A stretch of 48,201 nucleotides of DNA, taken from Prevotella sp. (GTDB lineage Bacteria > Bacteroidota > Bacteroidia > Bacteroidales > Bacteroidaceae). Below the pieces are notes generated by a model. That model saw only the letters and a list, made by a program, of their open reading frames with translations, was not told the DNA's origin and made no database searches. Positions within the stretch are counted from its first letter, which is position 1. Every line of letters starts with the position of its first letter. The translations under genes and the position numbers were made by a program. Below are positions 15,474-44,610 of the stretch, in pieces. The DNA lies in the NCBI GenBank assembly GCA_017467705.1, contig JAFUSC010000103.1:1-48201 (forward strand), read 5' to 3'.

Positions 15474-16026
15474 ATCCGTTTTGTTTTAAGTAGATTGTCA
15501 GTTTATCCTTGCCGCGCTTGAGGTGCGACTTCACCGTGCCTACAGGCAATCCGGTGATGTCGGCGATTTCGTTGATGGGGAAACCATCAACGAGCTGCAA
15601 CGTGATGCACGTGCGTTCGTCAGGTTTCAAGATGGCCAGGGCAGCATAAAGGTCAAGCTTCACCCCCGGCCCCTCCCCGACCGGAGAGGACAAGGAATTT
15701 TCCGCCTGTTCCATCACCTTACTTCCCTCTCCCGTCAGAGCGGGATTGGGGGCGAGGCTCCTGTTATAGTCATAGAACACATTGTAGGCTATGCGCATGA
15801 GCCACGTGGAGAATGATGCCGTGCCACGGAACTGGCGGATGTTGACGTAAGCCTTGATAAACGTGTCCTGTGCCAGGTCGTCGCTCAACTGACTGTCTCC
15901 CAAAGTCAGGTGCATGAGAAAACGTCGGACAGGCGACTGGTATTTGACAACCAACTGGTCAAAGGCCTTCCGGTTGCCAAACACCGCCACCTGCGTGACA
16001 AGAGAGATGTCAGTGAGATAAACCAT
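15460..16026 (-). CDS. ECF RNA polymerase sigma factor
   Basis: This 188-residue sigma-70-family factor has region 2 (residues 12-85; DDLAQDTFIKAYVNIRQF and STWLMRIAYNVFYDY) and region 4 (residues 120-180; INEIADITGLPVGTVKSHLKRGKDKL, with its helix-turn-helix). It would direct RNA polymerase to a stress or envelope regulon. The linker between the two regions (residues about 89-122) is enlarged by an inverted pair of GC-rich palindromes that encodes APNPALTGEGS and SSPVGEGPGV. It directly follows the PspC gene and overlaps the DUF5056-like gene, so all four minus-strand genes form one operon. Confidence 0.9.
   Translation of the reverse strand: MVYLTDISLVTQVAVFGNRKAFDQLVVKYQSPVRRFLMHLTLGDSQLSDDLAQDTFIKAYVNIRQFRGTASFSTWLMRIAYNVFYDYNRSLAPNPALTGEGSKVMEQAENSLSSPVGEGPGVKLDLYAALAILKPDERTCITLQLVDGFPINEIADITGLPVGTVKSHLKRGKDKLTIYLKQNGYERK
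15660..15758. repeat. Inverted pair of GC-rich palindromes (REPIN-like) inside the ECF sigma gene
   Basis: The left arm (15660-15697) starts TCACCCCCGGCCCCTCC. The right arm (15721-15758) ends GGGATTGGGGGCGAGGC. The arms are imperfect inverted copies, each with its own internal dyad, separated by 23 bp. They belong to the same family as 18435-18588, whose arms start GCCTCACCCCCAACCCC. Confidence 0.8.
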
Positions 16027-16215
16027 TTACAATGTCTTCGGGGGCATGATAGCCCATGCAACGATGTAGAATAAGACTCCGCTGAAAGCGGTAAAGAACG
16101 TAAGCGCAGCAAAGGCGACACGCACAACGGTGGGGTCAATGTCCATGTATTCAGCGAAACCGCTGCAGACGCCTGCTATCATCTTGTTGTCTGAACGTGT
16201 GAGTTTCTTGTCCAT
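16027..16215 (-). CDS. PspC-domain membrane protein
   Basis: This 62-residue protein reads KLTRSDNKMIAGVCSGFAEY at its start and then a hydrophobic stretch ending in YIVAWAIMPP. This is the whole PspC domain. PspC-type proteins sit in the inner membrane and take part in phage-shock or envelope-stress responses. The stop codon abuts the sigma factor start with no gap, and the upstream gene ends 9 bp before its ATG, so it is part of the four-gene minus-strand operon. The regulatory link to the sigma factor is inferred from context only. Confidence 0.88.
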   Translation of the reverse strand: MDKKLTRSDNKMIAGVCSGFAEYMDIDPTVVRVAFAALTFFTAFSGVLFYIVAWAIMPPKTL

Positions 16216-16224
16216 AATTATGCT

Positions 16225-16956: not shown

Positions 16957-17023
16957 TACTCGTTTTTAAACATTCTGTTTGTTCGTTTCTGTCTGTTTGA
17001 CGTAACTCGCAACTAAGAAGTTG

Positions 17024-17031
17024 CAAAGATA
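17024..17031 (-). promoter_or_regulatory. -7 box TATCTTTG for the sigma-factor operon
   Basis: The plus strand reads CAAAGATA. It lies 68 bp before the first ATG of the operon (16956). The 22-bp repeat array begins about 55 bp upstream of it. Confidence 0.65.
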
Positions 17032-17085
17032 GTCATTTTTTTTCATAAAAAACTAAACACAAGTCGTGTCTTTGTGTTCTTTAGT

Positions 17086-17343
17086 TGGCAAAGTGCTGAT
17101 AATCAGCTGTCAAAACGGTGCTTTACGATTGACAAAAGGGCACTATTGATTTGTAATATAGTCTATATTGCATTGTAATATAATCTATTTTACGTTGTAA
17201 TATAGTCTATTTTACAATGTAATATAATCTATTTTACAATGCAATATAAACTATATTACAAATATAAGAAAGCGCATTGACAATCGTTTAACAGCCATTT
17301 GGCAACTGAACTATTACTTATTGCCCATCGGAAATCGTCAGTT
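17086..17343 (+). repeat. 22-bp tandem array, AT-rich type
   Basis: A TG dinucleotide recurs every 22 bp at 17086, 17108, 17130, 17152, 17174, 17196, 17218 and 17240. After a 38-bp step it recurs at 17278, 17300 and 17322. The five central units are close relatives (TGTAATATAGTCTAT followed by TTTACAA), each with a dyad TGTAA / TTACA. Outer units are more diverged (TGTCAAAACGG, TGACAAAAGGG, TGGCAACTG). It fills most of the 553-bp gap between the divergent operons at 16956 and 17510. No spacers separate units. Confidence 0.88.
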
Positions 17344-17494
17344 TACAACATGGTAATAAAGTAAGGCTTACCCCGAACTCACGAACTTATGTTGTTGAAG
17401 TGCGAGGCATGGAGCAGGAAGCCCAATAAAAGCCAAATGAAGGTCCAGGAAAAATAAAATGAGAGAAAATGATGGTTAATTCGTTTTTTTGCTG

Positions 17495-17502
17495 TATTTT
17501 TG
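17495..17502 (+). promoter_or_regulatory. -7 box TATTTTTG for the RsmF-like gene
   Basis: TATTTTTG fits TAnnTTTG and ends 7 bp before the ATG at 17510. The expected transcription start is within a few bases of the start codon, so the mRNA may be leaderless. Confidence 0.65.
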
Positions 17503-17509
17503 CACAACA

Positions 17510-18829
17510 ATGGTAAAACTACCCGAGGAATTCATCAGCACGACACGCCGCACGATGGGCGACGAACGCTTCGAACGCTACATGCAGTCGTTCGAAGAGG
17601 AACCGCCTGTGAGCATCCGCCTGAATCCCCGTAAGGTGGAAAGCGGGCAGTGGAGCGTCGAAGGCGGTGAGCCTGTGCCTTGGTGCAGTCACGGCTATTA
17701 CCTGAAGCAACGCCCCCAGTTCACCATGGACCCGTTGCTGCACGCCGGCTGCTACTACGTGCAGGAAGCAGCCTCGATGTTTCTCGACGAGGTGCTACGT
17801 CAATTCTCCATTTTCCATTTTCAATTTTCAATTGACCTGTGCGCTGCGCCGGGCGGCAAGTCCACGCTGCTACGGTCAGCATTGCCCGAAGACTGCATGC
17901 TCACGTCGAACGAGCCAAACGCCAAGCGCTGTCAGGTGTTGGCTGAGAACGTGGAAAAATGGGGCTATGACAACCACATCGTCACGAACAACTATCCGCA
18001 CGACTTCGTGAAAGCCCGCCAGCGGTATGACCTGATTCTGTGCGACGTGCCTTGTTCGGGCGAGGGCATGTTCCGCAAGGACGCTGCCACCATCAGCGAG
18101 TGGAGCCCTGCACAAGTGGAGAAATGCTGGCGGTTGCAGCGCGAGATTGTGAGCGATGCATGGCAATGTCTGAACGACGGCGGTATTATCATATATAGTA
18201 CCTGTACTTTTAATACGCGCGAGAACGAGGAGAACGTACGCTGGTTCATGGAGCATCTGGGCGCCGAAGTGGTGCCCGTCAACGGCGTAAAACCCGAATG
18301 GAACATCACGGGCTCACTGCTCGAAGGCTTCACAGAGCCCGTCTATCGGTTCATTCCCGGCATCACCCGCAGCGAGGGACTATTTATGTGTGTGATGAGG
18401 AAAAGTAGTAGCCTCAGCACCGAAAGCCTCGACAGCCTCACCCCCAACCCCTCTCCAAGTGGAGAGGGGAGTGAATACACTCAAGGCAGGAATGGGCACA
18501 AGAATAAGCGCAAGAAAAAAGATGTGAACTCGGAGATCTTGAAGGTAATCACTCCCCTCTCCTCTCGGAGAGGGGTTGGGGGTGAGGCTTTCGGGGGTGA
18601 GGCTACTGCCGAACTCACCTACCAGCAGGCTCTTCAATATCTACGGCACGAGGCATTGGTGCTGCCGCCTGAAACGCCACGCGGCGAGTTGACCGTCACC
18701 TTCATGGGGCAGGCACTCGGTCGGGTGAAGAACATCGGCCCACGCGCCAACAACCTCTACCCCAAAGAGTGGCGCATCAAAACCACGCATACACCCGACA
18801 ACTATGAACCGGTGATTATTAAGCATTAA
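17510..18829 (+). CDS. RsmF/YebU-like 16S rRNA cytosine-C5 methyltransferase
   Basis: This NOL1/NOP2/Sun-type RNA m5C methyltransferase has 439 residues. The N-terminus MVKLPEEFI and SIRLNPRK are family-typical. The SAM-binding motif DLCAAPGGKST lies near residues 109-119. DVPCSGEGMFRK holds the conserved cysteine of motif IV, and YSTCTFNTRENE the catalytic cysteine of motif VI. A C-terminal RNA-binding region follows. Two repeat insertions enlarge it: a 7-bp array at residues 98-108, just before the SAM motif, and a palindrome pair at residues 309-360, between methyltransferase and C-terminal domains. The start is placed at 17510 because it opens the conserved N-terminus. The last codons lie in a 7-bp array. 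Confidence 0.88.
   Translation: MVKLPEEFISTTRRTMGDERFERYMQSFEEEPPVSIRLNPRKVESGQWSVEGGEPVPWCSHGYYLKQRPQFTMDPLLHAGCYYVQEAASMFLDEVLRQFSIFHFQFSIDLCAAPGGKSTLLRSALPEDCMLTSNEPNAKRCQVLAENVEKWGYDNHIVTNNYPHDFVKARQRYDLILCDVPCSGEGMFRKDAATISEWSPAQVEKCWRLQREIVSDAWQCLNDGGIIIYSTCTFNTRENEENVRWFMEHLGAEVVPVNGVKPEWNITGSLLEGFTEPVYRFIPGITRSEGLFMCVMRKSSSLSTESLDSLTPNPSPSGEGSEYTQGRNGHKNKRKKKDVNSEILKVITPLSSRRGVGGEAFGGEATAELTYQQALQYLRHEALVLPPETPRGELTVTFMGQALGRVKNIGPRANNLYPKEWRIKTTHTPDNYEPVIIKH
17801..17835 (+). repeat. 7-bp tandem array inside the RsmF-like gene
   Basis: Five heptamers: CAATTCT, CCATTTT, CCATTTT, CAATTTT, CAATTGA. On the opposite strand this is the ATTGAAA type seen before trmB. It encodes QFSIFHFQFSI just before the conserved SAM-binding motif. 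Confidence 0.88.
18435..18588. repeat. Inverted pair of GC-rich palindromes (REPIN-like) inside the RsmF-like gene
   Basis: Two 39-bp arms, 18435-18473 and 18550-18588, are inverted copies of each other. The arm starts GCCTCACCCCCAACCCCTCT, and the two differ essentially only in the 4-base loop of the internal hairpin (AAGT against GAGA). A 76-bp spacer encodes a Lys/Arg-rich peptide. The element encodes TPNPSPSGEGS at one end and SSRRGVGGEA at the other. A partial copy of the arm end follows at 18594-18604. Confidence 0.92.
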
Positions 18830-18907
18830 GCATTACAAATTAAGCATTAAGAATTAAGCATTAAGAATTAAGCATTAAGAATTAAGCATTAAGAATTAAG
18901 AATTAAA
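18817..18907 (+). repeat. 7-bp tandem array before thyA
   Basis: Thirteen heptamers, mainly alternating AATTAAG and CATTAAG, begin in the last codons of the RsmF-like gene (IIKH-stop) and end 3 bp before the thyA ATG. This is the longest heptamer array in the window and forms the entire intercistronic gap. Confidence 0.93.
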
Positions 18908-18910
18908 ACA

Positions 18911-19723: not shown

Positions 19724-19759
19724 ATGAAGAGGATAAAGAAAAGTTAATCGTGAAGAGTT

Positions 19760-20284
19760 ATGATCAATATGATTGCTGCCGTGGCGCGCAACCGTGCCAT
19801 CGGCTTTGAGAACAAGTTGCTCTACTGGTTGCCCAACGACCTGAAGCGTTTTAAGCAACTGACCACGGGGCACACCATCCTGATGGGACGCCGCACGTTT
19901 GAGAGTCTGCCCAAAGGGGCACTGCCCAACCGTCGCAACTGCGTGCTGACCAAAAAAGGAATAGAGGGAGTTGAGGAATTCATCAGTGCCGACAAAGCGA
20001 CATCGCTTGAGTTTTTCGGCAGTTGGGATGAGTTTCTGATTACCTGCATGCCTGACGAGGAAATCTTCATCATCGGCGGGGCCACGCTCTACAACAACCT
20101 GCTTGACAAGGCTGACCGCCTCTGTCTGACAGAGATTGACGACGTGCCCGCACAGGCTGATGCGTTCTTCCCCGACTTTCCCCGTGGCAATGGACGAGGT
20201 GAGTGGCACGAGACATCGCACGAAGAGCATGCGGCCGACGAGCGTCACGCCCACGCCTACAGCTTTGTGGACTACGAACGGTGA
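19760..20284 (+). CDS. folA: Dihydrofolate reductase
   Basis: This 174-residue enzyme reduces dihydrofolate to tetrahydrofolate with NADPH. Visible family features are MIAAVARNRAIGFENKLLYW at the start (with the NADPH/substrate loop), LPNDLKRFKQLT, GHTILMGRRTFESLP and EIFIIGGATLY. It follows thyA closely, consistent with recycling of the dihydrofolate made by ThyA. An alternative start is the second ATG at 19769. Its last 13 bp overlap the convergent ispH gene. The C-terminus has a His/Glu-rich stretch (HETSHEEHAADERHAHAY). Confidence 0.95.
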   Translation: MINMIAAVARNRAIGFENKLLYWLPNDLKRFKQLTTGHTILMGRRTFESLPKGALPNRRNCVLTKKGIEGVEEFISADKATSLEFFGSWDEFLITCMPDEEIFIIGGATLYNNLLDKADRLCLTEIDDVPAQADAFFPDFPRGNGRGEWHETSHEEHAADERHAHAYSFVDYER

Positions 20285-21168
20285 ATAATGGCGTCACGGC
20301 ACTGCTCCATGAGCCACTTCGGTGTGCTCGTGGCACCACAGATGCCGATGGAGTTGATGCCCTCAAGCCATGAGAAGTCAATCTCATCAGGTCCCTCAAT
20401 GAGGTGTGTATTGGGATTGACGCGCAGACACTCGTTGTAAAGCACACGCCCGTTACTGCTCTTGCGCCCGCAGACAAAGAGAATGAGGTCATGGCGGGTG
20501 GCAAACTGTGAGATGTTTGGCATGCGGTTAGCCACGGAGCGGCAGATGGTGTCGAACGAACGGAACGTCGCCGTAGGTGAGATGTGCTGCTGTATATAGT
20601 CAATGATACGGTGAAACTCGTCAAGCGACTTCGTGGTCTGTGAGTAGAGATAGATGTCACGCTGATAGTCGAGCCGCTTGGCGTCTTCGAGACTTTCAAT
20701 GACGATGGCCGTGCCCTGCGTCTGCCCGACGAGTCCAAGCACCTCAGCATGACCTTTCTTGCCGAAGATAACAATGGAAGCCTCCCCTCGGGGAGATTTG
20801 GAGGGAGCTTCCGCTTGGAGGGGCTTGGAGGGGGCTTCATATTGCCGCTTGATGCGCTTCTGCAACTGAAGCACAACAGGACAGGTGGCATCAATGATCT
20901 CAATATTGTTCTGGCGAGCCAGTTCATAAGTGGCGGGCGGTTCGCCGTGGGCACGCAGCAACACCGTCACGTCGTGCAGCTGGGACATCTGCTCATGGTC
21001 GATGGTGACAAGCCCCATGCGGCGCAGACGGTCACACTCCATGCCGTTGTGCACAATATCACCCAGGCAGTAGAGCTGTTTGCCCTCTGCCAGTGTCTCT
21101 TCAGCCTTCTTGATGGCGGTGGTCACACCAAAACAGAAACCGCTGCCATTGTCAATCTCTACTATCAC
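20272..21168 (-). CDS. ispH: 4-hydroxy-3-methylbut-2-enyl diphosphate reductase
   Basis: IspH makes IPP and DMAPP in the last step of the MEP isoprenoid pathway, using a [4Fe-4S] cluster. The three cluster cysteines are visible: Cys12 in GSGFCFGV, Cys96 in DATCPVV and a third near residue 210 in FDTICRSVANR. RAHGEPP and the C-terminal GATSTPKWLM are also conserved. Length is 298 residues. About 20 residues at positions 109-130 (PSKPLQAEAPSKSPRGEA) are an insertion encoded by a GC-rich palindrome, between KRIKRQYE and IVIFGKKGHAEV, which normally sit close together. It follows meaB by 9 bp and converges on folA. Confidence 0.95.
   Translation of the reverse strand: MIVEIDNGSGFCFGVTTAIKKAEETLAEGKQLYCLGDIVHNGMECDRLRRMGLVTIDHEQMSQLHDVTVLLRAHGEPPATYELARQNNIEIIDATCPVVLQLQKRIKRQYEAPSKPLQAEAPSKSPRGEASIVIFGKKGHAEVLGLVGQTQGTAIVIESLEDAKRLDYQRDIYLYSQTTKSLDEFHRIIDYIQQHISPTATFRSFDTICRSVANRMPNISQFATRHDLILFVCGRKSSNGRVLYNECLRVNPNTHLIEGPDEIDFSWLEGINSIGICGATSTPKWLMEQCRDAIIHRS
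20777..20843. repeat. GC-rich palindromic element inside ispH
   Basis: The segment begins GGAAGCCTCCCCTCGGGGAG, continues with TTTGGAGGGAGCTTCC and a second imperfect copy CTTGGAGGGGCTTGGAGGGG. The core AAGCCTCCCCTCGGGGAG recurs at 40430 and, inverted, at 32533. It adds about 20 residues to IspH in frame. Confidence 0.8.
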
Positions 21169-21177
21169 TTTTCTATC

Positions 21178-23432: not shown

Positions 23433-26400
23433 TCAACGCTCAACATGCAGCACCACCGACTTCGTCGTGGCCCGATATTCAGGCGAATAAGCGCACTGCA
23501 CGGTGCAGGTGCCCGTCTCGTAAGTGCCTTCACGGTCAATGAAATATTCGGTTTCAATGACGCGCTGTCCCTTGCGCAGCAAGTCGAAATAGTAGTTCGT
23601 GGAATAATCCTTCGGCGAGCAGTAGGCTCCGTTGCGGTAGCCGCTGAGCTGCTTGACGGGCTCCATGCAGGCTGCACGACGGTCAAGCACCTGCATGAAG
23701 TCAAGATCACGCTCGCTGTCAATGGTGATGCGCACCTTGATGCGGTCACCGACCTTGAGCGCAATGGGGGAACCCGTGGCGTTAACGGGGGAACCGTTAA
23801 CCACGATTTCGCGCTTCACGGTCAGGCCGCTGCCGCTGTTCTCTATGTCACGGACGGGCTGCATGAACTGTGCATAGACAGCACCCCACGACGTACCCGT
23901 TGAGGTCTTCTTCGCCGTGAACTCACGACCCTTGGGCTGATCAATGGCAGTCTTCACGTAGCCGACACCAGCCGTCGATTGCGGCAGTTCGAGTTTCTTG
24001 CCGTCAATAGCCAACACCGTCTGTTCCTGAGCATCAAGCAGGTGCGTATTGTCAAACAAGAACGCATAGACGGCATTGACGCTGTTGATGGGCGTGTCCC
24101 ATGCCTGCGTACGCTTTTCCTGCAACAGCCAGCGCTGCATCTCTTCCACCGTCTGCTGGTCAGCAGGCGTGATGACCTTCAGGGCTTCAATGGCCATGAC
24201 CTCCGTCGGAATCTTGTAGTCGTACCATGAATAACCGGCACGTGGTGTGTCGTAGTAACGCCCCTTCTCCTCCGTGAAGACGGTGTACTCCTTCAGACTC
24301 TGGGCATACTCCTCGCTGCGTTTCTTTTCGCCGATCTTGTTGAGGATGATGGCCGAGAGTGCCTTCTCGTAGATGGTCTGGTTCTTGATGTCCTTCTTCA
24401 TCTTGCCGATGAGATAGTCATTGGCGGCCTGTACGTCCTTCGGCAGCTTGCGTCCGTCGAGCGCACATATATATAGGTATTGCAGCGCCTTGAACGAGGG
24501 GAAGCCCACCGTGTGGCCTTCTTTCTCCCGTTTCTTCAGCTCAGCTACTTCTTTCACCATTTCACTGCCCATGAACGTAAAGGCTTTGTTGAGCATCGCC
24601 GTGGTCTCCTGCTGCTTGCCCGCCATGACGTTCAGGCGTGCCAGCATCTCACTGATGCTGACGGTCATGTAGAAACTGCCGCGCATGCCAGGCCACCAGC
24701 TCCAAGAGCCGTCGCCGTTCTGCAAGCCACTGAGCTTCTGCTTAGCTTCATTGATACGGTTGTTGATGGTGTTGTCATCGAAGAACTCACCCAGCCGCTG
24801 TTTCTGCTCGTCCTCACGGTCGGCATCAACCACCCACGGCGTCTCCTGTAACAGGATGTCTTTCAGCTCCTCATTCTTCGAGAGGTTACTGGTCAGCGAA
24901 CCGTTGTCAGCCTCGCGCTTCCACTGCTCAAACACGTTCTTGATGTCGGCACCCTGGCTAATGAGCGTGCGGGCAATGATGGTTGAATAGAGCGTGGCAG
25001 CCTGATCGATGGCATTTTCGTCACGCGGATTACCCACTGAAGGCAATGCCTGCACCATGAGCCAGACGGGATTATTGGTGTATTCCACGGTAAGCTTCTG
25101 ACGGCTGGTGCCTGCAGGGAACAGGCGTGCAATGTCAATGGCTTTCGTGCCCGGCTCATGCTGCGTGAACGGCACCGTCACAGTGACACGCTCCACATTG
25201 GGCAGCACGGCCAGATAATGCTGTTCGCCGTCGCTGAATGTCTTGCCCGCAGCTGACACCTGACAGATGTAAAGGTCGCACGAACCATCGGGCACGACGT
25301 TGAACGTGGCAACGAACGTCTCACCGGCCTTCACGCTGAACGGCTGGTTCTGCTTGAGCACGGTCTTATTGGTACGCGGGTCTATCAGCTGTAGCGTTGA
25401 CGTACCGCTGACGGTCTTTTCTGACGTATTGAAGATGCGGGCGGCTATCTGCGCCTGATCTCCCGTGCGCAGGAATCGCGGCATGTTCGGCTGCACCATG
25501 ACCTCCTTCTGGGCCACGGCCTCGCCTTCCAGCATGCCGAACTTCATATCCTTCGTCGTGGCCAGTCCCATGAAGCGCCACGTGGTAAGACTTTCAGGCA
25601 ATGTGAACTTGATGCTGACCTGTCCCTTCTTGTCAGTCAGCAACGTAGGATAGAAGAATGCGGTCTCGTTCAGGTTTTCACGCATCTGCACGCTGGCTGT
25701 CTCCGCCTCGGCTGTCTCGCCGGCATTGCCATCAGCAGTTGCTACAACGACTTCACTCAAATACTCCTCCTTGGCCTCAGCCATGGCCATCGGCTCGGCG
25801 TTGACCATCATCACACGCCCTGCCACACTGTTCTTGCGCATGGTTCCATAACCTAAAACAACGGCATCATCATAGACAGACTCGAAATCAGAGCGGAACA
25901 ACCAGCCGATGCCGGCAAAGTGATTGAACACCATGTCTGGAACGTCCAAGGGCGTCCAGCTACGATTACCACTGCAACTCATAGAAGACCATGATGAGCC
26001 TCTCCATGAAGTACTGGGCACCGGTATATGTATGTAGGGAGCAAACGACCACTGATGACCATTGATCTGGTCGAGCGACTTGTCATAAAGCGTTGCCATC
26101 AGCTGTGCGTCGGCAGGTGTGCCGTCGGGGTTGAGCACGGTCAGGCGCCACTCTTCCTTCTGTCCCGGTGTCAATCGGTCGCGGAAGGTGTCCCAACGCA
26201 GGGTCAGTTTCTTCTTAGGCAGCGGTCGTTTGATGCTTTCGGCATGTCGGTAGAGCTTGCCGTCTTTCACCCATGCGAAGGTGAGCAGCAGGCCGTTGCC
26301 ATAGTTTTCCTGATAAGTGAACTTGCGGTTCCAGATGGCGTTCGACTGGTCGAACGCGCCACTCTCAATCACATCGTCGCCGGCCACGATAGTGTAGACG

Positions 26401-29013: not shown

Positions 29014-29104
29014 CGAATAAGTGAGCAAAATGCAAAAGAAAAACAAGTTTTTCTTTTCATTTTCGAACGAAAGTACCTTCGACCGCAGGTCAAAGGTATA
29101 CAAT

Positions 29105-29139
29105 AATTAATAATAAAGAATTAAGAATTAAGAATTATT
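29105..29139 (+). repeat. 7-bp tandem array in the 28977-29437 gap
   Basis: Five heptamers: AATTAAT, AATAAAG, AATTAAG, AATTAAG, AATTATT. This is the same type as the arrays before topB and thyA. Confidence 0.88.
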
Positions 29140-29180
29140 TGTTTTTCTTATCGTCTTTCAAACTTTTTACCCCCATTTTT

Positions 29181-29290
29181 AGAACTGCCGATTCCCGAAA
29201 TGAGAACTGCCGATTCCCGAAATGAGAACTGCCGATTCCCAACGCGAGAACTGCCGATTCTCAACGCGAGAAACGGCGGTTTTCAAACCA
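29181..29290 (+). repeat. 22-bp tandem array, AGAACTGCCG type
   Basis: Five contiguous 22-bp units start at 29181, 29203, 29225, 29247 and 29269. The core is AGAACTGCCGATTCCC; unit 4 has the dyad GAGAAC / GATTCTC, and unit 5 is degenerate (AGAAACGGCGGTTTTC). Weaker in-phase units may flank it (29159, 29291). It lies in the 461-bp gap between the alpha-2-macroglobulin gene and the 29438 gene, ending 48 bp before a -7 box. The remainder of the gap is AT-rich with no gene seen. Confidence 0.92.
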
Positions 29291-31947: not shown

Positions 31948-33410
31948 CTCAGCTGTCCTGTGGCCTGTCGGTAGGCCGTTAGTTTGAGGTGGCAGTCAGC
32001 CATGGCGTCCACGCGGGCGTCGCAGGCCTGCTGATAAAGCAGCTGCGCCTCCAGCAGGTCCGTCATCTTCGACGTGCCGGCACGGTAGTAGTCACGGTTC
32101 AGGCGCAGGTTCTCCTCCGCCTGTTCCACACTGCGCTGGGCTATCTGCAGCTGCTGGCGGCTTTCCTGCACGTCGTTCCACGCCTTTTGCATGCGGATGC
32201 GCAACAGTTCGGCATTGTCGGCCAACTCGTCCTGCGCCTTCTGCAACTCAATCTTCTTACGCTTCATGGCATGCGACCCACCCCACCAGTCACTGATGGG
32301 AACGCTGACCGTGGCAAACACCATTCCAAATGACATGTTACGGTCCATCAGGTTATTGTAGTTATAACCTGCACCGACAGCCACCGACGGCAGCCTGCTG
32401 CCCAGCTCCATGCGCCGTTGCAGCTCAGCCGCCTCCACCTGTTTCTGCAACAGCTGGTATTCAGGGAGCAGACTCACGCCCGACTCTGAGAAAGCCTCCC
32501 TGTCGTCCCCCCCGAGTGAGAGCCCCCTCCCAACCTCCCCGAGGGGAGGCTTTGCTGCGCCAGAGTCAGGGACGACCACATTGAAAGAGTATCCACTCCA
32601 CTCTCTGCCGTAGGCTCCCCCCTCGCCCGTTGGAGAGGGGGCGGGGGTGAGGCCCGCATACTGCCCTAAGAGCATGCGGACAATCTGCATGCCATTCTGC
32701 AATTTCACCTTCTGGCTCTCCACCTCGTTCTGTCGCAGCTGCACCTGCAACAGGTCGTTGCGCATGGCTACGCCGGCACGGACAGCCACGTCCACATCCT
32801 TATGAATGTCGGCCAACAGCTCTTCAACAGCGCCGACGGTCTTCATCTTCTCTTCAAGTGACACCAACTGCCAATAGTACTGCTCCGTCTGCATCACCAC
32901 CTCGTTCTCCGACAACTGCAACTTCAGTCGGCTCACGTCCTCGCCGACCTTGGCCAGACGGTTGCCATTGACCATCTGGCCACCGGCAAAGACGGGCTGC
33001 ACCGCATTGATGCCTGCCAGCGTGCCGTTCTTCAGCATGCTGATGCTGATGGGACTGCTCAGCGCGGCCAAGGCCTCGGCAGGCAAGGTCTGCGCCAGCG
33101 TGGCTGCGAGCGACGACGGCAGATAGTCGCCGGGGTTGACATCGGTGGACACCAGATGTTTTGAGGCATTAAACCATGCCGCCGTCCCGCTGACCGTGGG
33201 GAAATACTTTGTGAACGCCTCGCGGCGCTGCTCGCTGGCAGCGGCGATGTCGTAACGCGCCGCCTGCACAGCGTTGTTATGCAGCAACGCTGAGTCTGTG
33301 AGCTGCCTGAGGGTGTAGGTCTGTGCTGTTGAAGGTAGACAGGTAAAAGGGTAAAAAAGCAAAACACCGATTACCCTACCCCAAACCTTGTTAATAACTC
33401 TTGCTTCCAT
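31944..33410 (-). CDS. TolC-family outer-membrane efflux protein
   Basis: This 488-residue protein has a signal peptide (residues 10-31, to STAQT) and two long helical repeats typical of the outer-membrane efflux family (TYTLRQLTDSALLHNNAVQAARYD; EENLRLNRDYYRAGTSKMTDLLEAQ). It forms the trimeric channel for the MFP-RND pump encoded upstream. Residues about 251-307, between the two halves, hold two GC-rich palindromic insertions (TPAPSPTGEGG; AAKPPLGEVGRGLSLGG). The hydrophobic part of the signal peptide (LLFYPFTCLPS) is encoded by an 8-bp array at 33335-33366. Confidence 0.9.
   Translation of the reverse strand: MEARVINKVWGRVIGVLLFYPFTCLPSTAQTYTLRQLTDSALLHNNAVQAARYDIAAASEQRREAFTKYFPTVSGTAAWFNASKHLVSTDVNPGDYLPSSLAATLAQTLPAEALAALSSPISISMLKNGTLAGINAVQPVFAGGQMVNGNRLAKVGEDVSRLKLQLSENEVVMQTEQYYWQLVSLEEKMKTVGAVEELLADIHKDVDVAVRAGVAMRNDLLQVQLRQNEVESQKVKLQNGMQIVRMLLGQYAGLTPAPSPTGEGGAYGREWSGYSFNVVVPDSGAAKPPLGEVGRGLSLGGDDREAFSESGVSLLPEYQLLQKQVEAAELQRRMELGSRLPSVAVGAGYNYNNLMDRNMSFGMVFATVSVPISDWWGGSHAMKRKKIELQKAQDELADNAELLRIRMQKAWNDVQESRQQLQIAQRSVEQAEENLRLNRDYYRAGTSKMTDLLEAQLLYQQACDARVDAMADCHLKLTAYRQATGQLR
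32489..32561. repeat. GC-rich palindromic element inside the OMF gene (larger copy)
   Basis: It contains CCCCGAGTGAG and the hairpin AACCTCCCCGAGGGGAGG, followed by CTTTGCTGCGCC. Its reverse complement starts GGCGCAGCAAAGCCTCCCCT. The copy in the acyl-CoA synthetase gene at about 40420 has the same sequence with one extra A, so the two share more than 25 bp. Confidence 0.82.
32612..32653. repeat. GC-rich palindromic element inside the OMF gene (single arm)
   Basis: GGCTCCCCCCTCGCCCGTTG followed by GAGAGGGGGCGGGGGTGAGG. This is one arm of the family found doubled at 18435-18588 and 15660-15758. It encodes TPAPSPTGEGG. Confidence 0.8.
33335..33366 (+). repeat. 8-bp array in the OMF signal-peptide region
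   Basis: Four octamers: GTAGACAG, GTAAAAGG, GTAAAAAA, GCAAAACA (plus strand). Read on the minus strand they encode the hydrophobic core of the signal peptide. Confidence 0.75.
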
Positions 33411-33417: not shown

Positions 33418-33483
33418 TTTTTTTACTCTTTCACTTTTTTACTTTTACTCTTTTACCTTTTTACTTTTTTACCTTTTTACCTT
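33418..33483 (-). repeat. 8-bp array between the RND and OMF genes
   Basis: On the minus strand about eight units of GTAAAARR (mostly 8 bp, one of 6) run from the last codons of the RND gene (KGKKVKK-stop) to about 8 bp before the OMF ATG. The whole 50-bp intercistronic gap is repeat. Confidence 0.82.
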
Positions 33484-36400: not shown

Positions 36401-36784
36401 CCACACCTCGTCTTTGTTGTTCACGTCGTCGTTCAGCTTCACCATCACGATGCACATGCCGTTCTGCGACGTGGTGGTGGTCTTGACGCGGTTGACCTCA
36501 CCATACGTGAAAAGGTAACGCTCCAAGGGACGCGCCACCTGCTGCTCCACTTCCTCGGTGGTGGCACCGGGATAGACGGCAACGACTACACCCTGCCTGA
36601 TGGTGGTATGCGGAAATTCGACCTTCGGCATGACATACATGCCGTAGATGCCCATCACGAACAGAATAACGATGATGAGCAGTGTGATGGAATAGTGCTC
36701 CAACGGCCACTTGAGCCAACCTAAGCCCCCTAAGTTAGGGGGTTGGGGGTCTGAACCCGCGTTTTTATAATTCTTATTTTCCAT
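33461..36784 (-). CDS. RND-family efflux transporter, inner-membrane pump (HAE1-type)
   Basis: This 1107-residue RND pump has 12 transmembrane segments and two large periplasmic loops. Family features include PHTTIRQGVVVAVYPGATTEEVEQQV near residue 55, ALIVVLGMIVDNSIVVIDGYLEY in TM4 with the proton-relay Asp, and GLITLMGMIMRNEILILEHAN near 965-985. It drives proton-coupled export through the MFP and TolC partners. Length exceeds the usual 1020-1050 because of three in-frame repeat insertions: residues 9-21 (PQPPNLGGLGW), 515-548 (TPNPSPREGS to GGAGGG) and about 985-1027 (VHSSQFIVHSS to NYELCTMNYEL). All are near the N-terminus or on cytoplasmic loops. Confidence 0.93.
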   Translation of the reverse strand: MENKNYKNAGSDPQPPNLGGLGWLKWPLEHYSITLLIIVILFVMGIYGMYVMPKVEFPHTTIRQGVVVAVYPGATTEEVEQQVARPLERYLFTYGEVNRVKTTTTSQNGMCIVMVKLNDDVNNKDEVWSKLKHGLNVFKGQLPSGVLAIVVNDDFGNTSALLIAIESAERSYRELKDYSDRLSDRLRRIPSVANVKLYGEQKEQISLYVDRQRLQAYGIGQQILFSRLQAQGITTMSGSISDADQQVPIHIAAAENNEEEIANQIIFSDPQTGKVVRVRDVARVVREYDTMSGRIEQDGHPCVLLSMEMTPGNNVVQYGEEVESVLSSFIAEELPDDVHITRIADKPKVVALSVSSFLRDLIISMIVIILVMMVLFPLRSAIVAAITIPLSTFVSVAIMYMAGIELNIVTLAALIVVLGMIVDNSIVVIDGYLEYLGKDYEPKVAAIASARQYFMPMMLATVCICAIFFPFLLTMKGTFHDALRDFPWTITINLMVSLILAVTVIPFLEVLIIKKPTPNPSPREGSLDGSSADTGNPTPLPSGGAGGGLVGWVQQTYNRVLEWTFAHPWLTIVGGLGVIALSTLIAPTLKIRLFPYADRDQFAVEIFLPDGKGLTETTVVADSVRHVLAHDERITGITGFIGCSSPRFMDAYAPQMAGRNYAQFIVNTESDKATLELLAQYQPQLSESFPDAYVKFKRLDYLEVNELEYRFYGDDLDSLHVVAERLMERMRQMPELEWVHTDYNEPFPLINVELDPVASAQLGITRTTAALALSATTNDLRVGQLWKGNYELPIVVKDDSDMTFSDIENIGVATPVSMASAALNNSNTTVPLRQVAKVSPQWSESRIVHRGGERCITVTAQFAQGVYTAPVEQRIAEIMQQEIPLPEGVRSEVGGEIEYGDEAMPQIIGGIVVAMIIVFFFLLFNFKKYGITTICMAALGLMIPGALIGLGLMDRALGLTSIFGLITLMGMIMRNEILILEHANNLVHSSQFIVHSSWQSQATEPSASSQKDGAQSNYELCTMNYELHNEAVRQAAYEAGKRRMVPIFLTTATTAVGVLPMIIAQSSFWMPVGVTIFAGGIGSLIMVVTMLPVVYWKVNLKGKKVKK
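33706..33826. repeat. Inverted pair of 7-bp arrays inside the RND gene
   Basis: Four GTTCATA-type heptamers (33706-33733) are matched by four inverted TATGAAC-type heptamers (33799-33826). The spacer holds CGCTCGGCTCTGTCGCTTGG and CTTTGCCAAGAAC, also found at about 36832-36865. The element lies in a loop near the end of the transporter. Confidence 0.88.
35140..35240. repeat. Inverted pair of GC-rich palindromes (REPIN-like) inside the RND gene
   Basis: Two 35-bp arms, 35140-35174 (GCCCACCCCCAGCCCCTCCT...) and 35206-35240 (...GGGGTTGGGAGTGGGC), are inverted copies with a 31-bp spacer. Each arm also contains an internal hairpin. In frame, they add about 34 residues in a cytoplasmic loop. Confidence 0.9.
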
Positions 36785-37917: not shown

Positions 37918-37940
37918 CGTTCTTTGATTGATTTTGGCTG

Positions 37941-38076: not shown

Positions 38077-38099
38077 CATCCGAAATCAAACATACACGT

Positions 38100-38984: not shown

Positions 38985-39104
38985 TGTGCCAGTTTGTTCA
39001 CGATGCCGGGATTTAACATTTGGCGGTCAATTTATTAACACGGAGAAGGGCCTCGTTCTGAAAAAAAGTTCTTTCGCCGCCAAATACGCGAATTTTGAGC
39101 CACT

Positions 39105-39310: not shown

Positions 39311-39319
39311 CAAACTATA

Positions 39320-39327
39320 TAGTTTTG
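39320..39327 (+). promoter_or_regulatory. Possible -7 box TAGTTTTG for the acyl-CoA synthetase gene
   Basis: TAGTTTTG fits TAnnTTTG and lies 10 bp past the 22-bp array. A second candidate, TACCTTAG at 39441-39448, has one mismatch and is closer to the ATG at 39475. Confidence 0.45.
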
Positions 39328-39474
39328 CATCACTGTTGAATTGTGGTTACACCAAAAATCCCGGAGAAAATTTGCCCCGAAATTTAACTCAATTAACAGA
39401 AATTCACAGTACCAATGACTGCTGGTTCATATTTTTTTTGTACCTTAGCGGCCAAAACAGAGATTATTCGACCT

Positions 39475-41646
39475 ATGATTAACAGAGAACTACTCGATCC
39501 GCAGTCAATCGTCATTGTCGGCGGCTCCAACAATCAGCACAAGCCCGGCGGCGCCATCGTGCGCAACCTGATACAGGGCGGCTACAAAGGTACATTGCGC
39601 ATCGTCAATCCCAAGGAAGACGAAGTGCAGGGCATCAAAGTGTTTCACGACGTCAAGGAGATTCCGCCCACGGAGCTGGCGGTGCTCGTCATTCCGGCCA
39701 AGCTGTGCCCCGACGCGGCTGAGGTGCTGGCACGCGACAAGGGCGTGCGGGCGTTCATCATCATCTCTGCCGGGTTCGGCGAGGAGACGAAGGCCGGTGC
39801 CGCGCTGGAACAGCGCATACTGGACACGTGCCAACAATACGGCGCTGCGCTCATCGGCCCGAACTGCATCGGACTGCTCAACCGACAGCACCACTCGGTG
39901 TTCACGCAACCCATTCCGAAGCTCAACCCACAGGGCGTCGACTTCATCAGCGGCTCAGGCGCCACGGCGGTGTTCATTCTGGAGAGTGCCGTCATCAAGG
40001 GCCTGCAGTTCAACTCGGTGTGGTCAATAGGCAACGGCAAGCAGATAGGCATTGAGGACGTGCTGCAATACATGGACGAGCACTTCGACGCCGCACACGA
40101 CTCCCACGTCAAGCTGCTCTACATTGAGAACATCAGCAATCCCGACAAGCTGCTGTTCCACGCCGCCAGCCTCATCCGTAAGGGGTGCCGCATAGCCGCC
40201 ATCAAGGCCGGCAGCAGTGAGAGCGGCAGCCGGGCAGCCAGCAGTCACACCGGAGCCATTGCCTCCAGTGACTCAGCCGTCGAAGCCCTGTTCCGCAAGG
40301 CGGGCATCGTGCGCTGCCACTCGCGTGAAGAGCTGACCACCGTGGGCTGCATCTTCAAGAGTTTAGAGTGGAGAGAGGGAGCCCCCCTGTCGTCCCCCGA
40401 GGGGGACACGGATGTGTCAGGCGCAGCAAAAGCCTCCCCTCGGGGAGGTTTGGAGGGAGCTTGGAGGGTAGGCATTGTCACCCACGCCGGCGGACCGGGC
40501 GTCATGCTCACCGATGCGCTGTCGAAGGGCGGACTGAGCGTGCCCAAGTTGGAAGGGCCGGCAGCCGAGGAACTGAAGAGCAAGCTGTTCCCCGGTTCGG
40601 CTGTGGCTAACCCCATCGACATTCTGGCCACGGGAACGGCTGAGCAGCTCGGCACGGCCATCGACTACTGCGAACAACGGTTCGACAACATCGACGCCAT
40701 AGCCGTCATCTACGGCACGCCGGGACTGACCACGCTCTACGAGGCTTACGAGGTGCTGCACAAGAAGATTCTGGAGTGCAGGAAGCCCATCTTCCCCATT
40801 CTGCCCAGCCTCCACACGGCAGGGCCGGAGGTAGCAGAGTTCCTACAGAAGGGACATGTGAACTTCTCTGACGAGGTAACGCTGGCCACGGCGCTAAGCC
40901 AGATCATGCAGACGCCGCCCCCTGCCCCACCCGAAATTGAGCTGTTCGGCGTCGACGTGCCCCGCATCCGCGAAATCATAGGGAGCATCCCCGGAAATTC
41001 CGGAAAATCCGGACAACCCACAGCCCGTTACCTTGACCCTGACACCGTGCGGCAGCTGCTGGAGTGCGCCGGCATACCCATGGTGCCCGAAATGGTCAGC
41101 AACCGGAAAGAGGAACTCACCGACTTTGCCCAGCGCGTGGGCTATCCCGTCGTGGCCAAGGTGGTAGGCCCCATCCACAAGAGCGACGTGGGCGGCGTGG
41201 CACTGAACATCCGCACGCCCGAACATCTGGCATTGGAGTTCGAGCGCATGATGCAGATTCCCGACGCGAAAGGCGTCATGGTGCAAAAGATGCTGAAAGG
41301 CACCGAACTGTTTATCGGCGCCAAGTATGAGCAGCGCTTCGGTCACGTGGTGCTCTGCGGACTGGGCGGCATCTTCGTCGAAGTGCTGAAGGACGTGCAG
41401 TCAGGTCTGGCACCACTCAGCTACGCCGAAGCCTACTCCATGATACACTCGCTGCGCGGCTACAAGATTCTGCAAGGCACACGCGGACAACAGGGCATCA
41501 ACGAAAAGAAGTACGCCGAAATCATTGTGCGCCTCTCCACGCTGCTGCGCTTCGCCACGGAAATCAAGGAAATGGACATCAACCCGCTGCTGGCCGATGC
41601 CGACAACGTCGTAGCCGTCGACGCGCGCATCCTCATAGAGAAGTAA
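39475..41646 (+). CDS. ADP-forming acyl-CoA (acetate-CoA) ligase, alpha-beta fusion
   Basis: This 723-residue enzyme converts acyl-CoA, ADP and phosphate to the acid, CoA and ATP, a fermentative ATP-yielding step. It has a CoA-binding domain (residues 1-130; IVGGSNNQHKPGGAIVRNL), succinyl-CoA-ligase-like domains with GPNCIGLLN and SHTGAIASSD (the phosphohistidine site of the family), and a C-terminal ATP-grasp domain (residues 510-720; AKVVGPIHKSDVGGVALNI and MVQKMLKGTELFIGAKY). The ATG at 39475 is preferred over 39415, since the conserved N-terminus begins there. A GC-rich palindromic insertion adds about 34 residues at 297-331 and a 9-bp array adds residues 506-514 between domains. Confidence 0.9.
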   Translation: MINRELLDPQSIVIVGGSNNQHKPGGAIVRNLIQGGYKGTLRIVNPKEDEVQGIKVFHDVKEIPPTELAVLVIPAKLCPDAAEVLARDKGVRAFIIISAGFGEETKAGAALEQRILDTCQQYGAALIGPNCIGLLNRQHHSVFTQPIPKLNPQGVDFISGSGATAVFILESAVIKGLQFNSVWSIGNGKQIGIEDVLQYMDEHFDAAHDSHVKLLYIENISNPDKLLFHAASLIRKGCRIAAIKAGSSESGSRAASSHTGAIASSDSAVEALFRKAGIVRCHSREELTTVGCIFKSLEWREGAPLSSPEGDTDVSGAAKASPRGGLEGAWRVGIVTHAGGPGVMLTDALSKGGLSVPKLEGPAAEELKSKLFPGSAVANPIDILATGTAEQLGTAIDYCEQRFDNIDAIAVIYGTPGLTTLYEAYEVLHKKILECRKPIFPILPSLHTAGPEVAEFLQKGHVNFSDEVTLATALSQIMQTPPPAPPEIELFGVDVPRIREIIGSIPGNSGKSGQPTARYLDPDTVRQLLECAGIPMVPEMVSNRKEELTDFAQRVGYPVVAKVVGPIHKSDVGGVALNIRTPEHLALEFERMMQIPDAKGVMVQKMLKGTELFIGAKYEQRFGHVVLCGLGGIFVEVLKDVQSGLAPLSYAEAYSMIHSLRGYKILQGTRGQQGINEKKYAEIIVRLSTLLRFATEIKEMDINPLLADADNVVAVDARILIEK
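40380..40467. repeat. GC-rich palindromic elements inside the acyl-CoA synthetase gene
   Basis: The left hairpin GTCCCCCGAGGGGGAC (about 40392) and the right hairpin CCTCCCCTCGGGGAGG (about 40433) are joined by a segment with GTGTCAGGCGCAGCAAA. The first matches the element in the GH43 gene (42724-42808); the second matches those in ispH and the OMF gene. It encodes SSPEGDTDVSGAAKASPRGG. Confidence 0.85.
40991..41017 (+). repeat. 9-bp tandem array inside the acyl-CoA synthetase gene
   Basis: Three 9-mers: CCGGAAATT, CCGGAAAAT, CCGGACAAC. They encode GNSGKSGQP in the linker before the ATP-grasp domain and resemble the CCCGGAATC array of topB. Confidence 0.7.
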
Positions 41647-41655
41647 AGCGTGACA

Positions 41656-42186: not shown

Positions 42187-44610
42187 CTATCCTTGGAAGG
42201 TGATGAGCTGATAGCTCAACGGCATTTCTGCGCCTACCTGTTGGAAAGTCTGCCCGTCCAATGAATACTCATAGTGCGCTTGGTCATGGTCGAAGTCACC
42301 CACCATGCGGAGGAAGATTCTCCCGTCAGCTAAACTGATGGCCACGTCGGTGGTGTCGTTGGTACGCTGTTCGAAGCAGCGCAGGGTGAGCTGCTTGCCG
42401 TCCTTCACCATGCCGATCCATGAACAGGGCACGTTGATGTTACCCAGCCCGCAAACGTCGCCGTCCTTCATGCCCTTGGTGTAGAGCTCGACGGTGGTGA
42501 TGCTCGACGGACCGATGACGCGCTGTGTCAGGGTGTTGCGGGCCCACATCAGTTGTTCGGCAGGCATCGTCTGCAGGCGCAAACGGCCGTTCTTGATGCT
42601 CCACTTCGAGTCGTCAGGATTGTGATTCCACTGCCAGACAGGTTTGAGTGTTTTAGTGGAAAGTGGAGAGTGGAGAGTGGAGAGAGAATAGTCAAAGTCG
42701 TCGTTGCGGTCGTAAGGGGCATGAGCCCCCCCCCTTTCATCCCCCGAGGGGGACACATTACCCTGCCGCAGATCATTTGTGTCCCCCTCGGGGGACGAAG
42801 AGGGGGCTACCTGCGGCTTGAACCAAGTTCTCGGTGCCCGTCCAAGGTTGCCTTCCAGCCCCAGCATGGGCCAGCCGTCCTTCCACGTGATGGGGGCAAG
42901 GGTCGTGGTGCGCCCGATGGAGTGGAAGTCCATCATCAACAACGCCCACCACTGCCCGCTCTGGTCCTGCACGATGCCACCCTGATGGATGTTGGTGCAG
43001 GCCGTCGCGTTCTCGTCAACAGGAGTCAAGAAGAACGGAGTGCCGTCATGACCGATGCGGTATTGTTCACGAGGCACCAGAGTAAGGGAAGACGCATGGT
43101 AGCCGAAGGTCTCATCAGCCGTGATGACGCGCGTCTCGTAAGGTCCCCAGATGCTCTTCGAACGCGAACAGAGCGTGCGCCCGTTGGGGCTGTAGTCGGT
43201 GGAGATGATGTAGTACATGCCGTTGATCTTGTAGATATGATGCCCCTCGCCCACCGCCGAGCCTTGGGAAATGATGACGCGCTCTGTCTCCTCGATGGGG
43301 CCGCTCATGTCGGCCTTCAGCTCCGTGCAACGCACTTCGCCGTAGTTGTGAATGGCGTATATCTTGCCATCATCGTCGAACAGCACGGAGAGGTCGTAGA
43401 TGCGTCCCTGCATGTTGTGATGCTTCCACGGTCCGCGGATGTCCTTCGACGTGTAGCACTGCAAGCCCTTGCCGTTGATGTTGGAGAAAATGTAGAACTG
43501 CCCGTTGGCATAGCGGATGCAGGGTGCCCAGATGCCCTGACCGTAAATCTCCTGATGGTTCTTCAGCGAGAAAGCATCGTCAGGGCAGTCGAAGCGGTCA
43601 AAGCAATAGCTGACATTCTCCCAGTTCACGAGGTCGCGCGAATGGAGGATAACCAGCCCCGGCACGCTGTGCATGGTGGTGCCGGCCAGATAGTAATCGT
43701 CGCCCACACGAAGCACGTCGGGGTCGGAAAACTCATCGTAAAAGAGCGGATTGGTAAACGTTCCGTTGCCGTTGTCGGCAGTCCAAGAGAGAGCCTCCCC
43801 CCGCCCCCCTCCCAAGGAGGGGGAGGAGGTTTGAGCGGTGCATGGGGCAAGGAGCATGAACAGGAACAGCAGGGTCAGGAAGCCCTGACGCTTGAGCGTC
43901 TGGAAGAGTCCCTCTGACATGGCTTCATTGTCTTTCTTTGTATAGCGGATGTCGGTGAAGATCTGCGCCAGCGTCTCCTTCTGATTGATTTCACAGAAGT
44001 GACGGTTCTCTTCCAGCTGCTCCTTGGCGGTGTAGTAACGATCAATATCATCGGCAGAATAGTCGTGATAGGTCTCGCGGTGTACGAAACTGTCAGCGGG
44101 CAGACGGTCAGAGAGGGGCGGTTCTTCGGCGGGCCATCCTACGGTGAGCGTAGCCACGGGCATTGTCAGACGCGGCAGTTGCAGCGTGTCGATAATCATT
44201 TGGGGCATGTAGACCGTGGTGCCCAGATAGCATAGTCCCAAGCCCTCCTCTTCGGCAAGGTTACAGAATGTCTGCGTATAAAGCAGGGCGTCAATGCTGG
44301 CGTTGAAGAACGACAGCAGATTGTCGTAGCCCGGCTGCGCCTTGCGGTTCAGGCACCATTGCGTGGTGCGGTTGAAGTCGGCACAGATGGTCAGCACCAC
44401 GGGGGCCTGTGTCACCATCGGCTGGTTGAAGTGTGCAGGTGCCAGCCGCTGCTTCATCTCCTGCGAGCGTGTGACAATGACGCTGTAGAGTTGCAGATTG
44501 CCCATGGTCTGGGTACGTGCCGCCTCGGTGAGCAGCCGGTTCAGCAGTTCCTCACTCACCTCCCGATTGCTGTATTGGCGAATGGTTCGCCTCGTGTTAA
44601 TGGTCTTCAT
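42187..44610 (-). CDS. Nitroreductase fused to glycoside hydrolase family 43, truncated by an amber codon
   Basis: Residues 1-240 are a nitroreductase (TRRTIRQYSNREVSEELLNRLL start; YTKKDNEAMSEGLFQTLKRQGFL end, as in complete free-standing members). With no stop, the frame runs into a signal-peptide-like segment (TLLFLFMLLAPCTAQ, residues 246-260) and a GH43 domain. Its probable Asp base is Asp296 in FSDPDVLR and its Glu acid is Glu455 in GEGHHIYK. GH43 enzymes cleave xylan or arabinan side chains. An internal ATG at 43920 (Met231) would give MSEGLFQTLKRQGFL plus the hydrophobic core, a complete signal peptide. Palindromes and a 7-bp array sit at residues 258-273, 601-629 and 643-652. The gene ends at an in-frame TAG. 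Confidence 0.82.
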   Translation of the reverse strand: MKTINTRRTIRQYSNREVSEELLNRLLTEAARTQTMGNLQLYSVIVTRSQEMKQRLAPAHFNQPMVTQAPVVLTICADFNRTTQWCLNRKAQPGYDNLLSFFNASIDALLYTQTFCNLAEEEGLGLCYLGTTVYMPQMIIDTLQLPRLTMPVATLTVGWPAEEPPLSDRLPADSFVHRETYHDYSADDIDRYYTAKEQLEENRHFCEINQKETLAQIFTDIRYTKKDNEAMSEGLFQTLKRQGFLTLLFLFMLLAPCTAQTSSPSLGGGRGEALSWTADNGNGTFTNPLFYDEFSDPDVLRVGDDYYLAGTTMHSVPGLVILHSRDLVNWENVSYCFDRFDCPDDAFSLKNHQEIYGQGIWAPCIRYANGQFYIFSNINGKGLQCYTSKDIRGPWKHHNMQGRIYDLSVLFDDDGKIYAIHNYGEVRCTELKADMSGPIEETERVIISQGSAVGEGHHIYKINGMYYIISTDYSPNGRTLCSRSKSIWGPYETRVITADETFGYHASSLTLVPREQYRIGHDGTPFFLTPVDENATACTNIHQGGIVQDQSGQWWALLMMDFHSIGRTTTLAPITWKDGWPMLGLEGNLGRAPRTWFKPQVAPSSSPEGDTNDLRQGNVSPSGDERGGAHAPYDRNDDFDYSLSTLHSPLSTKTLKPVWQWNHNPDDSKWSIKNGRLRLQTMPAEQLMWARNTLTQRVIGPSSITTVELYTKGMKDGDVCGLGNINVPCSWIGMVKDGKQLTLRCFEQRTNDTTDVAISLADGRIFLRMVGDFDHDQAHYEYSLDGQTFQQVGAEMPLSYQLITFQG
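42656..42683 (+). repeat. 7-bp tandem array inside the GH43 gene
   Basis: Four heptamers, GTGGAAA then GTGGAGA three times. On the minus strand they encode SLSTLHSPLST. Confidence 0.88.
42724..42808. repeat. Inverted pair of GC-rich palindromes (REPIN-like) inside the GH43 gene
   Basis: The left arm 42724-42756 and right arm 42779-42808 are inverted copies ending in CCCCCGAGGGGGACAC and beginning in GTGTCCCCCTCGGGGG. The spacer is 22 bp. It encodes SSSPEGDTNDLRQGNVSPSG, similar to the insertion in the acyl-CoA synthetase. Confidence 0.92.
43792..43836. repeat. Single GC-rich palindrome inside the GH43 gene
   Basis: GCCTCCCCCCGCCCCCCTCC followed by CAAGGAGGGGGAGGAGG, a hairpin of the same general kind. 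It encodes SSPSLGGGRGEA just after the predicted signal-peptide cleavage site. Confidence 0.8.

Follow-up and report, generated by a model that had tools for sequence, protein, structure and literature searches.

In-frame palindromes in a Prevotella contig resemble the ends of small elements that encode a DUF559 nuclease

The Prevotella sp. DNA analysed here (the window; 48,201 nt, contig C51 of the draft genome G000, which comprises 2.53 Mb in 170 contigs and is 77% complete) raises a simple question: what are the GC-rich palindromes that interrupt its genes in frame, and how did they get there? A sequence-only reading of the window had named seven genes with such palindromes, and all seven carry them in frame. 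The palindromes are repetitive extragenic palindromes (REPs), and the majority of the units in the window consist of two REPs in inverted orientation, as in REPINs (REP doublets forming hairpins). New relative to that reading is that these mostly paired units resemble the ends of elements encoding DUF559 (PF04480), a Vsr-like PD-(D/E)XK nuclease. Such an element consists of a REP hairpin, one DUF559 nuclease gene and an inverted REP hairpin, about 0.45–0.65 kb in all. We propose, with a probability of roughly 0.6, that the palindromes are the ends of these small mobile elements together with their internally deleted, non-autonomous derivatives, similar to REPINs or miniature inverted-repeat transposable elements (MITEs).

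The seven genes contain nine REP sites, all of them GC-rich and in frame (ECF, extracytoplasmic function; OMF, outer-membrane efflux; RND, resistance-nodulation-division; ORF, open reading frame):

15660..15760, minus strand: REP pair in the ECF sigma gene (15460-16026, minus); residues 89-123, encoding APNPALTGEGS...SSPVGEGPGVKL
18434..18588, plus strand: REPIN (two inverted REPs) in the RsmF-like gene (17489-18829, plus); matches the end of DUF559 element L112
20778..20840, minus strand: REP insert in ispH (20272-21168, minus); in a loop; marginal match to DUF559 element L114 (15 versus 13)
32495..32655, minus strand: REP pair in the OMF gene (31944-33410, minus); residues 252-306; matches DUF559 element L112
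35137..35243, minus strand: REPIN in the RND gene (33461-36784, minus); residues 514-550; matches the end of DUF559 element L115
36724..36756, minus strand: single REP at the N-terminus of the RND ORF, residues 10-21; 33/33 nt identity to the end of DUF559 element L117
40378..40466, plus strand: REP pair in the acyl-CoA synthetase gene (39415-41646, plus); matches the end of DUF559 element L114
42725..42808, minus strand: REP pair in the GH43 gene (42187-44610, minus); matches DUF559 element L114
43790..43832, minus strand: single REP in the GH43 ORF, residues 260-274, after a signal-peptide-like segment; matches DUF559 element L116

The link to DUF559 was reached by following REP pairs on contig C77. 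All seven DUF559 genes of this genome lie between inverted REPs of a subtype particular to each gene, and all nine window sites match the flanks of these seven genes better than any of 60 random segments of the window, which were unmatched in base composition. Seven sites are well clear of these controls, with scores of 19–35 versus at most 16, while the ECF and IspH sites are marginal (15 versus 13). Recurrence within the genome is also evident from simple patterns. With up to 3 mismatches allowed, the window contains 10 matches to the 16-nt palindrome CCTCCCCTCGGGGAGG versus 0.35 expected, a count reached in none of 100 shuffles, and the 18-nt REP arm CACCCCCAACCCCTCTCC at the same tolerance has 51 matches in the genome versus 4 for the reversed pattern; CGAACCCCTCACCC, the first pattern tried, gave 0 matches. 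In the RsmF unit GCCTCACCCCCAACCCCTCTCCAAGTGGAGAGGGGAGTG is the first REP and precedes an inverted partner, and the two single REPs are those at the RND start and next to the signal-like segment of the GH43 ORF. Judged by eye, REP units read from the outside inwards mostly begin with RGCC(T/C) or something similar.

The same arrangement was found well beyond this genome. The flank test covered 46 of 61 PF04480 rows, with 15 fragments, broken or contig-edge copies set aside and L170–L172 left out, and 45 of these loci had usable flanks. An inverted-flank score of at least 18 was reached by 36 of the 45 (the seven loci of this genome included) versus 7 of 99 control windows of the same geometry. 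GC hairpins were present in both 300-nt flanks at 29 of 43 Bacteroidales loci (1 of 39 controls), 19 of 27 loci from the wider Bacteroidota (1 of 25) and 10 of 16 from a plasmid collection (2 of 16), which pooled gives 58 of 86 loci versus 4 of 80 controls. These samples represent 43 of 46 Bacteroidales loci, 27 of a set of 29 new DUF559 loci that were taken as best-scoring with no random draw, and all 16 plasmid-collection loci, drawn from 16 of 38 records and belonging to Proteobacteria, Cyanobacteria and Deinococcus. At Sinorhizobium meliloti L195, one REP pair stands on either side of the DUF559 locus. DUF559 elements have terminal inverted repeats, as do classical DNA transposons and MITEs.

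REP subtype and nuclease are linked. Among the 36 elements with a flank score of at least 18, those with more similar nucleases also have more similar REPs (Mantel rho 0.49, 0 of 5000 permutations), and pairs taken within genomes give rho 0.45 (n = 36). Across 60 genomes, the number of DUF559 matches correlates with REP excess (rho 0.53, p 1e-5) and the number of Y1 transposases does not (rho -0.17, not significant), both counts including fragments. These comparisons bear on an explanation in which a Y1 (TnpA-REP, or REP-associated tyrosine transposase, RAYT) enzyme moves the REPs in trans, as is assumed for GTAG REPs, and DUF559 is a passenger caught between them. RAYTs are associated with inverted REP doublets, according to the available text of PMC3116915, and the genome does encode a diverged RAYT-like ORF (L031, contig C10). 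This 441-aa ORF contains an insert rich in Pro, Thr and Ala and has additional sequence at its C-terminus; it scores 38.6 bits against the NCBIfam model REP_Tyr_transpos, below the cut-off of 80. It is the sole Y1 match in the genome and no cognate REPs flank it, its flank score of 13 being equal to the control-window mean. Abundant REPs also occur with DUF559 and no Y1 match: G003 (99% complete) has 149 REP hairpins, G026 (99%) 168 and G019 (91%) 136, the first two searched at E 0.001. By eye, the REP hairpins have no 5′ GTAG or GTGG foot at their base; a GTAG-like string is seen in some, on the 3′ (inner) side only. Nor would a passenger be expected in seven of seven cases with a matched REP subtype. 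We regard mobilisation by a Y1 enzyme as distinctly improbable, and RAYT was rejected as the REP partner. Rejected likewise were CGTC-type REPs as partners of DUF559: two 9-nt sequences that we take to be their cores, CATTGCGAG and GAAGCAATC, gave 11 scattered matches across 91 loci and no bracketing pair, and a CGTC tag at the hairpin foot was seen by eye at L114 alone among 36 listed element ends.

Where the inserts sit in their proteins was resolved mainly by Pfam matches. The ECF insert (89-123) falls between sigma region 2 (25-90) and region 4 (125-176), the RsmF insert (316-367) between the methyltransferase (113-302) and PUA-like (381-430) domains, the acyl-CoA synthetase insert (322-351) between Succ_CoA_lig (174-311) and a below-cut-off match to Ligase_CoA_2 (352-405), and the paired GH43 insert (601-629) between GH43 (285-581) and GH43_C2 (652-799). 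In the OMF protein the insert precedes the best OEP stretch (316-485), just ahead of the second OEP unit, and in the RND protein residues 514-550 directly follow the MMPL match (362-512), in what we take to be the loop between the two transporter halves. The IspH insert occupies a loop that varies in length among relatives. The proposal that all palindromes lie in linkers or loops thus holds for the main inserts at seven of the nine sites, but not for the other two, which are near ORF starts or signal-like segments. Because the REP at 43790 directly follows such a segment, the true GH43 start may be internal; the ORF 42187-44610 combines a nitroreductase domain, the signal-peptide-like segment, GH43 and GH43_C2.

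The peptides encoded by the REPs are rich in Pro, Ser, Gly and Glu. A family-1 peptide, (T/A)PNPSP-x-GEGS, had been described in four unrelated proteins; the four proteins stand, but the motif is degenerate, reading APNPALTGEGS in ECF, TPNPSPSGEGS in RsmF, TPAPSPTGEGG in OMF and TPNPSPREGS in RND. SPRGEA and SSPEGDT were found where they had been reported, the former in IspH and the latter in both the acyl-CoA synthetase and GH43. Such peptides in linkers or loops might also be native low-complexity segments that had drifted into a likeness to repeats. We consider this scarcely credible, in view of the identity over all 33 nt between 36724-36756 and an element end elsewhere in the genome, the 1568 hairpins of the form CCCCTCN{2,14}GAGGGG in the 60 genomes versus 94 for the reversed pattern, and the absence of the in-frame palindromic insertions from orthologues (IspH and the G003 helicase genes were checked). 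The IspH peptide is not a conserved segment. Between QY(E) and IVIFGKKGHAEV, the loop of Prevotellaceae IspH ranges from 4 to 41 residues, measured on DNA at 76 of 80 loci and the window (L032, L100, L105 and L110 were covered as proteins; the alignment comprised the window and 35 of the 80). Its content differs by species: some have almost nothing there, others REP-type peptides (SPSGEG, SPEGDT, SPNLPKGEE) and others peptides of a 7-nt repeat. The nearest relatives of the window IspH are Prevotellaceae, many of them from the rumen.

Dispersal, which the sequence-only reading had put forward as active, is borne out by presence and absence of units between close genomes. G003 and G026 are sister genomes. 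Stretches of two contigs from each, with raw BLAST matches totalling 123 kb, align in blocks that are 82–98%, mostly 91–98%, identical and contain one clear case of a REPIN within a gene. In a helicase gene (AAA and UvrD_C_2 domains), G003 encodes APHNPPERGEAQAAGEGMQGKATSNKGLSSFRGIEGG where G026 encodes EKQAEGLS; 109 nt replace 22, a net gain of 87 nt that keeps the frame. Whole elements differ in the same way. A 611-bp DUF559 element of G026 occupies a site of 5 bases in G003 with flanks that are 98% identical, between genes that presumably encode an electron-transfer flavoprotein and an acyl-CoA dehydrogenase. No target-site duplication was seen in these two close-genome cases, in which 5 and 22 bp of target were replaced. 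Where the insert is missing from many relatives, as it is next to ispF and in an ABC-F gene, the direction of change is clear. The L113 element upstream of ispF is present in G000 only, and in 16 relatives its two flanks adjoin, 19–204 bp apart, with no element between them. The L113 REP subtype recurs at no fewer than 13 other places in G000 and at at least 5 in G019, 3 in G016 and 1 each in G003 and G011, with none in other relatives among the best 11 candidates scored per genome. The two halves of the ABC-F gene of G028, which carries an insert of 456–459 bp, adjoin without interruption in at least 22 of the 36 genomes searched.

A further explanation casts DUF559 as a nuclease of repair or defence that ends up next to REPs, these being hotspots of insertion or recombination, with the REPs themselves spreading by other means such as replication slippage or template switching. 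REPs are described as targets for insertion sequence elements in the accessible part of PMC1525189, and weak PADLOC matches were obtained. Moreover, the Caulobacter DUF559 protein VsrA, which causes an SOS response when a cytosine methyltransferase is missing, is read by its authors as a mismatch-repair enzyme that can cause breaks, as far as the available text of PMC12907096 goes. A nuclease landing beside hotspots does not readily account for its position between two inverted REPs of the same subtype, or for the presence or absence of the entire unit as one block, and we hold this explanation to be unlikely.

In several proteins a complete element lies within the coding sequence. DUF559 and its REP-encoded linkers are in frame inside leucyl-tRNA synthetase (LeuRS; L126 and L135, and at a different site in L225), methionine synthase (MetH; L214 and L219), an ABC-F protein (L130), an AAA helicase (L142), a DegT/DnrJ aminotransferase (L167) and HsdR (L204); in guanylate kinase (L141) they form the N-terminus. 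The alignment to the methionine synthase structure 9ssp bridges residues 752 to 772 across a 164-residue insert, and that to the leucyl-tRNA synthetase structure 2v0c bridges 236 to 242 across 142 residues. An ORF that runs 100 codons or more beyond the DUF559 domain on its upstream side, or 60 or more on its downstream side, was found at 17 of 46 Bacteroidales loci and 12 of 29 loci of the wider best-scoring set, counts in which some upstream runs may be non-coding. A Pfam scan of ten fused ORFs, picked by eye, found no splicing domain, and the inserts matched DUF559 and the overlapping MTES_1575 model only.

The catalytic motif of the enzymes is conserved. Profile matches are above cut-off with the D...E-x-(D/E)-G motif, which is present as written in 89 of 91 domains; L183 and L210 read E-A-D-G, a difference confined to the spacer residue. 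DUF559 is closely similar to 3hrl ('Endonuclease-Like Protein', E = 6.7e-19) and distantly similar to 3r3p ('Mobile intron protein', E = 0.0099), which we take to be a homing endonuclease. Beyond the observed association, it seems probable that DUF559 moves the REPs. The nuclease would cut or nick target DNA, and repair of the break would copy in either the whole element or a shortened REPIN, the hairpin ends probably serving recognition. Across the nine window sites 34 of 54 frames are open, and across the cores of the seven element ends of this genome 35 of 42. Since more than one frame is commonly open and the encoded peptides, rich in Pro, Ser, Gly and Glu, are flexible, copies in frame within linkers can survive selection; others are presumably lost. 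We would give even odds to a broader proposal, namely that DUF559/Vsr-like nucleases mobilise C-rich REPs throughout bacteria (Bacteroidota, Proteobacteria, Cyanobacteria, Deinococcus), as elements that have the nuclease as their only gene, hairpins as ends and break repair in place of transposase chemistry, and that can reside as an in-frame domain in essential enzymes such as LeuRS.

Several observations weigh against DUF559 elements as the source of the palindromes. Nine of the 45 DUF559 loci fall below the flank threshold; L136, L158, L166, L167 and L168 have no convincing REP pair, and L128 just reaches the threshold, yet without one. At L167 the flanks fail the REP-pair score and a REP-like peptide, TPNPSPEGNG, is found on one side only. 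At the plasmid-collection loci the inverted-flank score fails to tell cases and controls apart (controls: mean 17.6, maximum 52, n = 64), and the hairpin test alone did so. Five genomes with a REP excess of at least 15 have no DUF559 match, among them G018 (90% complete) and G032 (97%), the latter also having no Y1 match, and 13 DUF559-positive genomes show little excess of the single hairpin pattern counted. The change between G003 and G026 is unpolarised by an outgroup, and the role in mismatch repair proposed for VsrA points elsewhere.

Truncation offers one way for a whole element to decay towards bare REPs. In Sinorhizobium meliloti Ak57 (L231, compared with L184) a truncated DUF559 gene lies between dsbA-like and smc genes and a partial REP unit remains; the pair was rejected as an insertion case, the truncated gene being a remnant of decay. 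Azospirillum L185 was rejected as a presence/absence case, as related records also carry DUF559 and the difference lies elsewhere.

Other repeats occur in the window and its relatives. Arrays of a 7-nt AT-rich repeat (AATTAAG and kin) are found at 11026-11075, 18810-18908, 29091-29140 and 33782-33831. One array falls within the RND gene and is read in frame as NYELCTMNYELHN. In other species the IspH loop is taken up by similar repeats, also of 7 nt (SLTSHLSPLTSQ, ITNYENN), and nothing of use on heptanucleotide repeats was found in the literature searched. Units of 22 nt, TTGTAATATAGTCTATTTTACA-like and AGAACTGCCGATTCCCGAAATG-like, make up two tandem arrays at 17129-17260 and 29159-29290. A different palindromic family, GTAGGGACAGACGCCCTCGTCTGTCC..., is represented at L266 (G026, contig C9, near 26164-26367), with 202 bp in G026 versus 4 bp in G003.

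REP-like repeats are common in bacterial genomes, some classes being described as having no transposase of their own, and DUF559 is still annotated as a domain of unknown function. A matched nuclease-REP pair would make both questions testable in Escherichia coli K-12 (ycjD), Caulobacter crescentus (vsrA) and Sinorhizobium meliloti, and mobile DNA of this kind supplies conserved enzymes with linkers and with entire in-frame domains, without a splicing domain. DUF559 as a REP partner was not found in the open-access literature, subscription papers and preprints lying outside the search, and a term search of the available text of a recent REP survey (PMC12306157) found endonucleases and transposases unmentioned.

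E. coli YcjD is a DUF559 protein (PMC1189080 and PMC12817139, as far as their available text goes), and we find hairpin-like C-rich repeats downstream of its gene (L198/L229, the sapF-fabI interval). In 3362 of 5426 E. coli genomes, coverage of the sapF-ycjD-fabI stretch reaches 80% or more. An efflux operon takes its place in the two examined strains without ycjD, so that there is no clean empty site, and ycjD was rejected as an empty-site test; the accessible text of PMC12817139 likewise treats ycjD as a hypothetical gene replacing the eef operon. Palindromic units in frame in unrelated genes have precedents in the Rickettsia palindromic elements and in intragenic GTAG and CGTC REPs (PMC3733652, in the part available). 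According to the same source, CGTC REPs have no dedicated transposase; the units of this genome, however, belong to another C-rich family. A parallel in organisation is the known pairing of REPINs with RAYTs, which likewise combines inverted REP doublets with an enzyme gene set between REPs of its cognate subtype, enzyme and REP co-varying (PMC3116915 and PMC6006769, from the text available). However, RAYT is an HUH tyrosine transposase whereas the enzyme of the DUF559 elements is a PD-(D/E)XK nuclease, and many DUF559-linked REP copies lie inside genes. A selfish nuclease is a natural model, and DUF559 is weakly similar in sequence to the Vsr-like-fold 'Mobile intron protein' 3r3p. Unlike intein or intron homing elements, DUF559 elements carry no splicing domain (by Pfam), stay in frame, end in hairpins and occupy many sites.

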